A stretch of DNA of 64,000 bases from Collinsella tanakaei (GTDB taxonomy: Bacteria > Actinomycetota > Coriobacteriia > Coriobacteriales > Coriobacteriaceae). A model generated the notes under the pieces. The model had not been told where the DNA came from, did not search any database, and saw only the letters and a list, made by a program, of their open reading frames with translations. Positions 2,506 through 63,004 of the stretch are shown in pieces; position 1 is the first letter of the stretch; each line of letters begins with the position of its first letter. The DNA is taken from positions 1 through 64,000 of the forward strand of contig NZ_JAUDCO010000005.1 in assembly GCF_030373545.1 (NCBI RefSeq), in the 5' to 3' direction. Made by a program: the position numbers and the translations under genes.

Positions 2506-3657
2506 ATGATCGGTCGCAAGGAGCCGGCAACCCGGTGGGCGTGGGTCGAGATCGACCAGGGCGCCCTGCGTCGCAACACGCGCGCCTTCAAGAACCTGCT
2601 GGGTCCCCGTCAGCGGCTGTGCTGCGTCATCAAGGCCGACGCCTACGGTCACGGCGCGGTGGCGTGCGCCAAGGTCATGCACGCGACGGGCTGCGACATG
2701 TTCGCCGTCGCCACGGTGCTGGAGGGCGTCGAGCTCCGTCAGGGCGGTATCGAGGAGCCGATCCTTGTGCTGTCCGAACCTCCGCTGACCGCGATCGATA
2801 CGCTGCTTGAATATCGCCTGATGCCGTCGGTCTACACGTCCGAGTTCGCGCTCGCCTACGGTGAGCGCGCAGTGAGCCTCGGTACGGTGGGCAAGTACCA
2901 CATGGCGATTGAGACCGGTATGAACCGTATTGGCGTGCATTACACCGAAGTGCTCGACTTCAGGCGTGAGATCGATTTCCACCGCGGTATCCAGTGCGAC
3001 GGCGTGTTTACCCACTTCGCGACGGCTGACGAGTCGAGCGGATGGGACTACCAGCTTCAAAGGACCCGCTTCGACGAGGCGGTCGGCGCCCTGCGCGACG
3101 CCGGCTTTGAGTGCGGCATCGTCCACTGCGACAACACCGCCGCGTCGATTCTGGACGCGTCGTCCCATTACGACATGATTCGCGCGGGCATCGGCCTGTA
3201 CGGTCTGCAGCCCTGCGAGGCGACGCGCCCCGTCTTTCCGCTCGAGCCGGTCATGAGCGTGCGGGCGCGTGTGACGCGGACCGTGCATCCCGCGATGGGC
3301 GAGGGCGTGGGCTACGGCTTCACCTACCGTGTGCCGCGGGCCCGCGTGCAGATCTGCACGCTTCCGGTCGGGTACGCCGACGGTCTTGCGCGCACGCTGT
3401 CCAACCGGATGGATGTCCTGTATCGCGGCCAGCGCCTGCGCCAGGTGGGCAATATCTGCATGGACCAGTTCATGGTCGCTATCCAGCAGACCTCCATGCG
3501 CCAGATGCCGGAGGCCCAGATGGGCGACGTCATGACGATCGTCGGCCGCGACGGCGACGCCGAGATCACGATGGACGAGATGGCGCGTCTGCGCGGAACC
3601 ATCAGCTACGAGGTCGCCTGCGGATTCGGCATGCGTCTCGAGAAGGTCTACTGCTGA
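2506..3657 (+). CDS. alr: Alanine racemase
   Basis: PLP-dependent interconversion of L- and D-alanine for peptidoglycan. The PLP lysine lies in VIKADAYGHGA near residue 45. The second catalytic base, a Tyr, fits the GVGYGFTYR segment near residue 270, and NICMDQFMV is the conserved C-terminal-domain motif. The 383-residue length is normal. Start ATG 2506 lies 3 nt after nnrD, so it is probably translated from the same message; the udg gene follows after 9 nt. Confidence 0.95.
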   Translation: MIGRKEPATRWAWVEIDQGALRRNTRAFKNLLGPRQRLCCVIKADAYGHGAVACAKVMHATGCDMFAVATVLEGVELRQGGIEEPILVLSEPPLTAIDTLLEYRLMPSVYTSEFALAYGERAVSLGTVGKYHMAIETGMNRIGVHYTEVLDFRREIDFHRGIQCDGVFTHFATADESSGWDYQLQRTRFDEAVGALRDAGFECGIVHCDNTAASILDASSHYDMIRAGIGLYGLQPCEATRPVFPLEPVMSVRARVTRTVHPAMGEGVGYGFTYRVPRARVQICTLPVGYADGLARTLSNRMDVLYRGQRLRQVGNICMDQFMVAIQQTSMRQMPEAQMGDVMTIVGRDGDAEITMDEMARLRGTISYEVACGFGMRLEKVYC

Positions 3658-44240: not shown

Positions 44241-44316
44241 GCCTCCGTAGCTCAGGGGATAGAGCACCGCTCTCCTAAAGCGGGTGTCGACGGTTCGAAT
44301 CCGCCCGGGGGCACCA
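44241..44316 (+). tRNA. tRNA-Arg(CCU)
   Basis: Cloverleaf: acceptor GCCTCCG pairs with CGGGGGC, D-arm with AGCTCAGGGGATAGAGC, anticodon loop CTCCTAA giving CCU, T-loop GGTTCGAATCC, and encoded CCA. A hairpin ACGGCG...CGCCGT with TTTCT at about 44323-44355 can terminate it. Confidence 0.95.
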
Positions 44317-58021: not shown

Positions 58022-58029
58022 TGTCCGAT

Positions 58030-58060
58030 GTCCCAAAAGGGGCCAGGAGAAAATTGGGAC
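58030..58060. repeat. 31-bp palindromic element, family 2
   Basis: Same sequence as the 50185 copy; lies between hisF and hisI, 21 nt before the hisI start. Confidence 0.85.
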
Positions 58061-58081
58061 ATGCGCAGGGAAGGGATGACG

Positions 58082-58402
58082 ATGGAGATCGATAAGCTGA
58101 AGTTCGATGCGCAGGGGCTCATCCCGTGCGTCGTGCAGCAATACGATACGGGCGAGGTGCTCATGGTGGCGTGGATGAACGCCGAGTCGGTGCGTCTCAC
58201 GCTTAAGACCGGCACCACCTGGTTTTGGAGCCGCAGTCGCCAGGAGCTGTGGAACAAGGGCGCGACGAGCGGCAACATGCAGCAGCTGCACGAGCTGCGG
58301 GTGGATTGCGATGCCGACACGCTGCTCGCCCTCGTGGACTCACCCGGCCCTGCCTGCCACACCGGCAACCGCACCTGCTTCTTCCGCACCCTGGGAAAAT
58401 AG
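58082..58402 (+). CDS. hisI: Phosphoribosyl-AMP cyclohydrolase
   Basis: Zinc enzyme, 106 residues, HisI only with no HisE part. LIPCVVQQYDTGEVLMVAWM, FWSRSRQELWNKGATSGNMQ, VDCDADTLL and PACHTGNRTCFF give the zinc and magnesium ligands. ATG 58082 is preferred (GGGAAGGG 6 nt before); ATG 58076 is possible. A longer frame would start in the upstream repeat and is not credible. Its stop lies inside a family 3 palindrome. Confidence 0.95.
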   Translation: MEIDKLKFDAQGLIPCVVQQYDTGEVLMVAWMNAESVRLTLKTGTTWFWSRSRQELWNKGATSGNMQQLHELRVDCDADTLLALVDSPGPACHTGNRTCFFRTLGK

Positions 58403-58421
58403 GGGCAGGCACTTTTTTCCC
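58393..58421. repeat. 29-bp palindromic element, family 3
   Basis: GGGAAAATAGGGGCAGGC...TTTTTCCC, overlapping the hisI stop codon; inverted relative to 40736-40764. Confidence 0.75.
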
Positions 58422-58446
58422 GCTGCCTTCAAGAAAGGACCGCAAC

Positions 58447-59434: not shown

Positions 59435-59794
59435 ATGTCCGTCCTGTTTGTCGAATACCCCAAATGCTCGACCTGCAAGAAGGCCAAGAAATGGCTGGAT
59501 GAGCACGGTGTCGAGTATATCGACCGCCATATCGTGGAGGACAATCCGCGTGCCGACGAGCTCGCCGCGTGGCAGCAGAAATCCGGCCTGCCGGTCCGCC
59601 GTTTCTTCAACACGAGCGGCATGAAATACCGCGAGCTGGGCATCAAGGCCAAACTGGATGCCGGCATGTCCGACGACGAGGCGTTTGCCCTGCTTGCGAC
59701 CGACGGCATGCTCGTCAAGCGCCCTATTGTGGTGACCGATGGAACGGTGCTCGTCGGGTTCAAAGAGGATGCGTGGGCCGAGGCCCTGGTGTAA
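59435..59794 (+). CDS. ArsC/Spx-family protein (YffB-like)
   Basis: 119 residues. FVEYPKCSTCKKAKKWLDEH has a CxxC rather than the Cys-only ArsC motif; NTSGMKYRELGIKAKL and LVKRPIVVTDGTVLVGFKED match the ArsC/Spx/YffB thioredoxin-like family. It could be a thiol reductase or an Spx-like regulator; arsenate reduction is not implied since no ars genes are near. ATG 59435 follows AGAAAGG. Confidence 0.85.
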   Translation: MSVLFVEYPKCSTCKKAKKWLDEHGVEYIDRHIVEDNPRADELAAWQQKSGLPVRRFFNTSGMKYRELGIKAKLDAGMSDDEAFALLATDGMLVKRPIVVTDGTVLVGFKEDAWAEALV

Positions 59795-59844
59795 GGGGCT
59801 CACGGCGCGACCGGGGAGGGCGCGCGGTAGCTAAAATGCCATAT

Positions 59845-59977
59845 CCCCGTTTACGGTTCGGTTTTGGAGGCGCCTCTCGAGTAGAGGCGCTCTTTCGCCC
59901 AAAGAATCAGCAGGTACAGAGCTTGCCGTTTTGTGCGCTATTCGACCGGTCGTCTCCAAACCGAACCGTAAACGGGG
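59845..59977. repeat. Structured inverted-repeat element, copy 1
   Basis: Arms CCCCGTTTACGGTTCGG...GGAG (59845-59869) and CTCC...CCGAACCGTAAACGGGG (59954-59977) pair with one bulge. Inside is GCGCCTCT-CGAGT-AGAGGCGC (about 59870-59890). It shares its layout with copy 2. Confidence 0.8.
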
Positions 59978-60000
59978 TTTGCGTTTCGCGAGATTTCCAG

Positions 60001-60139
60001 TACCCCCGTTTAGGGGACGGATTTGCGCGCGCCTCTTGAGTAGACCGTATTTGAGCGCCGCATCTACCTGCAAGTTTTATAGTGCTAAAAACCCGTCTAC
60101 TCAACAGCCCTTTCAAAAACCGTCCCCTAAACGGGGGTA
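60001..60139. repeat. Structured inverted-repeat element, copy 2
   Basis: Perfect 20-bp arms TACCCCCGTTTAGGGGACGG (60001-60020) and complement (60120-60139), with an inner perfect 10-bp pair TTGAGTAGAC (60036-60045) / GTCTACTCAA (60095-60104). The GCCTCT-GAGTAGA text is shared with copy 1. Both lie between convergent genes where no protein gene is seen. Confidence 0.85.
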
Positions 60140-60204
60140 GTGAAAATACGGCGTCGTGTGGGGCCAAAAACGGGTTTCGAGCAATGCCCGTGGCCGGCGA
60201 ACGC

Positions 60205-60645
60205 CTACAGAATGCCGAGCTGCATCAGATAGAGCACGTAGCCGACGGCCATGACCGCGTTGGCGACGACGCAGATGAAGCCCAAGACCTTGCCGGCGGT
60301 GATCATGCGCGGGTACGGGGCGTTTTGGCGCTTGGCCATGGTGCCCAAGACGATGGCGACGATACCGGCGACGATGCTCAAGATCCAGCTAACGAACAGG
60401 GCGAGGATGATGCCGACGATGCCGAAGATCGCCGTCGCGACCGAGAGGCCAGGGTTGCCGAAGGCCTCATCGGCTTCCTCGTCGGCGTCGGCGCCCTCAT
60501 CGGCGTCGGAAGGGGAGGCGACGTCGGCGGGCTCGTCGCCCCGCGGCGTGTCGGCCTCAGGCGTGCATGCAGCAGGTGCGGTCGCATCCGCCTCGATGCC
60601 GTCGTCGATGTTCTGCTTGATATCTTCGCTCTGGTCAGATGCCAT
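60205..60645 (-). CDS. DUF4190-like membrane protein
   Basis: 146 residues. An acidic, disordered N-terminus (about 1-60, DADEGADADEEADEAFG) precedes two spans with the DUF4190 pattern (SVATAIFGIVGIILALFVSW, LSIVAGIVAIVLGTMAKRQN) and a third near the C-terminus (FICVVANAVMAVGYVLYLMQ). ATG 60645 has GGAGGAAC upstream. Function unknown; possibly a housekeeping envelope protein. Confidence 0.75.
   Translation of the reverse strand: MASDQSEDIKQNIDDGIEADATAPAACTPEADTPRGDEPADVASPSDADEGADADEEADEAFGNPGLSVATAIFGIVGIILALFVSWILSIVAGIVAIVLGTMAKRQNAPYPRMITAGKVLGFICVVANAVMAVGYVLYLMQLGIL

Positions 60646-61618: not shown

Positions 61619-63004
<1,386 letters not shown>

Follow-up and report, generated by a model that had tools for sequence, protein, structure and literature searches.

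Mobile repeats of bacteria are normally traced through their conserved ends. REPINs are intergenic palindromes in which two inverted units lie at near-fixed spacing, and they form lineage-specific repeats. MITE families are identified from the conservation of their ends and not of their middle, and ERIC, BOX and NIME elements are intergenic palindromes of ~100-150 bp with conserved arms. Here we describe a dispersed non-coding DNA repeat of Coriobacteriales, two-fold symmetric and 133 bp long to within 1-2 bp, in which the ends change between species and the middle stays, so that searches by conserved ends miss the family. Among open-licence papers, we found no such repeat for Collinsella or Coriobacteria; six taxon names have 0 occurrences in PMC3733652. 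Fremin and Bhatt (2021; PMC8040213) present palindromic structured RNA candidates of human microbiomes, some of them 100-130 bp long; a Collinsella candidate named there is 51 bp, lies upstream of L7/L12 and is unlike the 133-bp element.

The window analysed is a stretch of 64,000 nucleotides from Collinsella tanakaei (contig NZ_JAUDCO010000005.1). An initial annotation of its letters had described a pair of nested inverted repeats at 59845-60139, non-protein-coding and possibly structured RNAs. The inverted repeats are present, both units are exactly 133 bp with paired arms in each, and the absence of a coded protein was borne out. Copy 1 (59845..59977, arm type CGGTT) has its core on the plus strand and copy 2 (60004..60136, arm type GGGGA) on the minus strand, so that the two cores of the pair run in opposite directions. 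Copy 1 begins with the left arm CCCCGTTTACGGTTCGGTTTT (59845..59865, +), followed on the same strand by the left inner motif CGAGTAG (59878..59884, element positions 34-40), the central conserved motif (59904..59917, element positions 60-73, the region of the AAAACCNGCAGGTAG consensus), the right inner motif (59938..59944, element positions 94-100, consensus CTACTCG) and the right arm (59957..59977). Apart from a single mismatch at its inner end, the right arm is the reverse complement of the left, and pairing is perfect over 20 bp (59845-59864 with 59958-59977). Copy 2, read on the minus strand in core orientation, has its left arm at 60116..60136, left inner motif at 60097..60103 (positions 34-40), central motif at 60064..60077 (positions 60-73), right inner motif at 60037..60043 (positions 94-100) and right arm at 60004..60024. 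Its 64-nt arms are 77% complementary without gaps and are predicted to fold into a long, bulged outer stem. Identity between the two copies is 80% over their first 44 nt. Outside the element, the left neighbour is a gene of the ArsC family (59435..59794, +; Pfam PF03960, E 1.8e-20), and the right neighbour is a predicted gene convergent with it (60205..60645, -; no Pfam match). Elsewhere in the window, a simple DNA repeat within an ORF of 461 aa (61619-63004) gives rise to a long alternating His/Glu run (HEHEHE...).

The observation holds and extends further than first noted. A search for further copies, proposed in that annotation, showed the pair to be two members of a dispersed intergenic family with ~30 copies in this genome (G000) and more in other genomes. 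In the genome, the arm pattern CCCCGTTTANNNNNCGGNTTT has 49 matches and its reversed control has 0. Our first collection held 49 copies (29 in G000, 18 in the close relative G022 and 2 in G016), and length was exactly 133 bp in 46 of them. Two more were later added to the 29, and a model of the core reported 38 places in G000 at E<=0.001. Arm sites fell inside elements in 48/48 cases in G000 and 35/36 in G016, the odd one being a lone arm.

The architecture is rigid. A core of ~91 bp, CGAGTAG ... AAAACCNGCAGGTAG ... CTACTCG, lies between inverted arms that read, in core orientation, CGTTTA, five variable bases and CGGTTTT. From the arm inward come 12 unconserved bases, CGAGTAG, ~20 unconserved bases, AAAACCNGCAGGTAG and then TTGC with a T-rich stretch; CTACTCG, 12 unconserved bases and the mirrored arm complete the element. 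The 12-base spacers pair at chance level. The five variable arm bases are of the types GGGGA, CGGTT, GAAGA and GGGTT, and the two sides agree save in a few hybrids: the 29 copies of G000 comprise 15 GGGGA/TCCCC, 5 CGGTT/AACCG, 4 GAAGA/TCTTC and 5 mixed or near matches. Adjacent pairs in G000 were heterotypic in 5/5 cases, one of them through a hybrid copy, which is only suggestive given the type frequencies. In some copies the two halves match different relatives (L043:3004-3136 and 3274-3406, where hybrid arms are found, and L056:3097 against L060:2974), a sign that copies recombine with one another.

Copies did not overlap predicted genes (0/46, by a rough gene caller that placed the right neighbour of the L043 gap on the plus strand, where a protein match gives minus), and they had no fixed orientation to neighbouring genes. 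When the direction of flanking genes was read from third-position substitution, 29 gaps comprised 9 co-directional, 5 divergent and 4 convergent cases, with 11 left unassigned. A terminator role was discarded: although the genes on either side of the window pair converge, copies elsewhere occupy co-directional and divergent gaps too. A leader RNA was rejected for want of an orientation rule.

We then compared arms across species. The initial annotation had observed that the arms of the two window copies differ while each copy keeps its own pairing. This stands on a larger scale, though hybrids such as GAAGA/TCCCC and CAGTT/TCCCC break the rule. Outside the window's species group, inverted arms were present in 85 of 91 copies found by their cores, and at 16 of 2000 random places, some of which may themselves fall on elements. 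This recount used one search space with repeats removed and included homologous places in related species; because such species share some copies by descent, the 91 copies are not independent events. The register of the window copies, 134, was kept in 59 of the 85, and all 85 lay within 132-136. Within the window's species group, inverted arms were found in 63/63 copies, many of them recovered through their arms.

Arms change together on both sides, and they do so by species. The arm pairing score averaged 5.5 across genomes and 15.4 within a genome, with a copy's own arms scoring 9.5-25.8 depending on the genome. Arms of other species are entirely different, such as CTTGTACCAGTTT (G001), CGCAAATGTGGGGATAA (G050) and GGTTTGGTGTGGGTTT (G057); G008 has both GTTGTGTATGGGTTTT and CTCGTGTGCACGTTTT, and G046 at least five kinds. 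Within one genome, arms are near-invariant and cores drift. Core columns differed by arm class at p<0.05 in 14 of 91 cases, with ~5 expected; we read these differences as shared ancestry and rejected a guide-like match of core to arm. In several loci a second copy of the arm motif lies ~35 bp further out on both sides (L179-L184 in G001, L200-L201 in G057, L205 in G021). Arms reach more than 40 bp as near-perfect palindromes in L197 and L199 (G008) and in L237-L238 (G084), where the window copies have 20-26 bp.

The core carries the family across species borders. A first core-only model (91 columns, 43 copies, no structure, blind to arms) matched 41/43 Collinsella genomes, whereas exact arm patterns were found in only 2 or 3 of the 43, which illustrates how such a family is missed. 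A second model (72 positions, 79 copies, cut-off E<=1e-5) found the core in 31 of the 120 genomes searched in the order. Nineteen of these are Collinsella, six belong to four other genera of the same family (4-24 matches each), and six come from a second family, where they fall into three genera (1-11 matches; in four of the six only at E 1e-6 to 6e-6). The remaining 89 of the 120 gave no match at E<=1e-5. Copies from the four other genera, and from G096 and G131, again had arms of their own. Copy numbers were 20-40 per genome, spread over contigs. Viral contigs held 0 matches to arm or core patterns, and searches of phages and plasmids with one core each gave short, chance-level matches only.

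Is the element used as RNA or as DNA? As a structured non-coding RNA, it would have an outer stem made of the arms, an inner stem of GAGTAGAC/GTCTACTC and, as a protein-bound loop, the central motif. Strong hairpins are predicted for both window copies on both strands (folding z-scores of -7.4 to -10.2, with 0/200 shuffles as stable each time), a stability that comes mostly from the palindrome itself, and arms pair in nearly every copy. The inner repeat also has isolated two-sided changes that favour an RNA: GAGCAC/GTGCTC occurs in many Collinsella genomes, a Collinsella clade has exchanged GAGTAG/CTACTC for GAGCAC with GTGCTC or GTGGTC, and L057 and L188 have GCGTAG/CTACGC. At inner positions 35-37 with 97-99, G.U outnumbered A.C by 36 to 11 in 86 dereplicated copies, and in this one respect the core leans to RNA.

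However, the helices of the core did not exceed chance. From 43 copies, RNAalifold predicted 0 consensus pairs over the 91 core columns, and with RIBOSUM scoring of 79 genus-wide cores only the inner repeat of 8-9 bp was predicted to pair. The covariation score of that repeat was at shuffle level (0.160, against 0.151 in shuffles, 98/500 of which were as high), although its number of pairs with two-sided change, seven, was attained in 23/500 shuffles. The arms covary between species, but their mismatches, among 134 distinct arm pairs, were 27 G.U, 27 A.C and 63 of other kinds; as G.U equals A.C, there is no wobble preference, and this absence together with zero core consensus pairs favours DNA over RNA. 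Moreover, near-identical arms sit on cores with only about half of their bases in common, for which pairing alone is insufficient; sequence-specific recognition or homogenisation is therefore needed.

At gathering level, with Collinsella-1 RNA among the families searched, neither window copy matched Rfam; at six other loci the element had no match even at E 1, and one chance-level match (E 0.59) fell outside it. The sole gathering-level Rfam match of the window is a tRNA gene (44241-44313). A scan for sigma-70-type promoters over 59780-60210 found 0 promoter-like sites; terminator-like matches in the same interval numbered two, with 0.9 expected. With no orientation rule either, the structured-RNA reading of the initial annotation was not upheld, and we consider it unlikely.

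We compared orthologous copies to assess how the element behaves in place. In 12 G000/G022 pairs (excluding the chimera L056/L060), changes numbered 69/768 in variable core columns, 15/324 in conserved columns (p 0.013) and 6/408 in the arms (p 5e-8); the conserved core columns were taken from 28 of 44 copies in other species. Arms of unmoved copies are thus under constraint where they stand, and their purifying rates of change suggest a use in place beyond mobility. Constraint on arms and on conserved core columns would suit a site on the chromosome where a protein binds to serve the host (nucleoid, replication or repair), selected in place and with a binder that quickly changes specificity, as would the conserved spacing of motifs and the 20-40 copies over contigs. 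The history of single gaps argues against such a site. The gap beside a metallo-hydrolase gene holds the element in G000, G008, G046 and G057, and none was detected there in G016, G013, G017 and G047 (where the gap is 70 bp); presence therefore varies at one gap even among close species.

One gap can also hold different copies in different species. Of 16 G016 copies examined, 12 lie in gaps that contain a copy in G000 or G022 as well (for L126 as judged from a single flank), and one more, L124, stands at the position of L133 in G022. Where G000 and G016 had the same arm type, cores were 82% and 73% alike and ranked 1. At nine loci with differing arm types (one of which, L111:3295, could pair with another neighbour), core identity was 43-62%, at ranks 6-34 of 45. 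We read cores at paralogue level where the arm type differs as replacement; very fast change in place may also account for them, as 7/9 loci were slightly above the average paralogue. A host protein would, in addition, need to switch simultaneously with ~30 sites. On these grounds a host binding site is, in our judgement, doubtful and no more probable than an RNA.

Orientation was kept in 11 of 13 G000/G022 pairs; one pair had undergone a clean inversion, and the chimera was also inverted. In the clean case, L047 and L061 have cores identical at 83/91 positions in opposite directions, with continuous flanks. Flipping is therefore infrequent, a point that weighs against an invertible segment (inverton) with recombinase sites for arms and a switchable core, even though inverted repeats at fixed distance, the lack of a fixed orientation to genes and the two inversions would fit one. 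The window copies have no promoter-like sequence by the sigma-70 scan, and neighbouring genes are convergent as well as co-directional or divergent. An inverton is thus a distinctly improbable reading. Neighbouring copies also differ in number between relatives: L066 of G022 is a pair, and L046 of G000 is one copy with the pair's outer flank.

No gene found in our searches for a mobiliser (RAYT, IS21 or an autonomous parent) was tied to the element. Movement of a REPIN by a RAYT transposase would explain palindromic, intergenic, species-specific repeats with fixed spacing, and RAYT genes do occur in the genus, with three in G000. But Pfam found 0 matches to Y1_Tnp in the carriers G001 and G005, which hold 18 and 5 core matches, and the three RAYT loci of G000 are accompanied by other palindromes, with no arm at fewer than 4 mismatches. 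Of all readings weighed here, we regard mobilisation by RAYT as the least probable.

Other mobilisers fared no better. An origin from IS21 was rejected: near full-length IstB is present in 7/15 genomes and absent from 8/15, including G000, and the best arm match at ten IstB loci had at least 5 mismatches. In G000 and G016 we found no autonomous transposon with these arms; the arm sites there are short elements and one lone arm. Most copies of the G000 group have TA on both sides and most G016 copies lack it, a pattern in which no clean target-site duplication is evident. Given its absence from most G016 copies, TA may just belong to the palindrome, and an IS630-type MITE, proposed from these flanks, was dropped. 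Two further kinds of repeat were seen. A palindrome, GGGTTGG..GAACACGTCCCCAACCAACCC, clusters beside many elements (L043:3420-3560, L059:3143-3300, L057:3060-3180, L088:3183-3304) and also occurs at one RAYT-like gene locus in G000. Short repeats at 58023-58066 and 58384-58429 recur many times in G016, G022, G013 and G008 at 85-100% identity; they are REP-like and of a different family from the 133-bp element.

The reading we prefer, with about even chances of being right, is a non-autonomous DNA repeat that moves or recombines in the manner of REPINs or MITEs and whose arms are read by a putative lineage-specific protein. The comparisons above lead us to infer this protein and its binding, as well as transposition itself and the sequence of replacement events. 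Each of the two arms would be bound by one copy of a lineage-specific DNA-binding enzyme, or of a protein belonging to such an enzyme; with a pair so placed, the arms would have to match each other and agree across the copies of one genome. For the core, the binder would be a host protein or a more slowly evolving component of that machinery. When arm specificity shifts, copies of the new type would enter intergenic gaps that already hold, or are able to hold, the element, and copies of the old type would be lost, partly via deletion between neighbouring copies.

More tentatively, and as a possibility we think somewhat short of probable, the family may represent bacterial DNA elements of a new kind, which combine a conserved middle with species-specific mirrored arms that serve as a recognition code. 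The arm "dialect", common to ~20-40 copies in a genome, would change as a set between species, driven by a putative fast-evolving DNA-reading enzyme that occurs throughout Coriobacteriaceae and in one or more other families. If a protein reads the arms, the copies offer many natural matched pairs of sites with different sequence and the same geometry, a ready data set on how a DNA-reading enzyme alters its specificity in step with all of its sites. As natural markers, the copies also record rearrangement in common gut bacteria.

The combination of a rigid, two-fold symmetric repeat, a conserved core and species-specific arms sets the element beside several described systems. Like ERIC, BOX, NIME and other intergenic mosaic repeats, it is palindromic, intergenic and ~100-150 bp long; we saw no sequence link to them, and by their description their arms are conserved. 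Invertible promoters of gut bacteria likewise have inverted repeats around ~90 bp, and one inversion was seen here, but the sigma-70 scan of the window copies found no promoter and the gene arrangement is unsuited at convergent places. With MITEs such as Correia elements and RUP it has in common a short non-coding body, terminal inverted repeats, many copies and, in the G000 group, the flanking TA, but it differs in that G000 and G016 yielded no autonomous copy bearing such arms and that a target-site duplication was not seen consistently. It resembles the REPINs of the RAYT system in Pseudomonas and enterobacteria in being intergenic, palindromic, lineage-specific and built of two inverted units at near-fixed spacing. 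It differs from them in having carriers without a detected RAYT and a middle that is conserved over two families between arms that vary.
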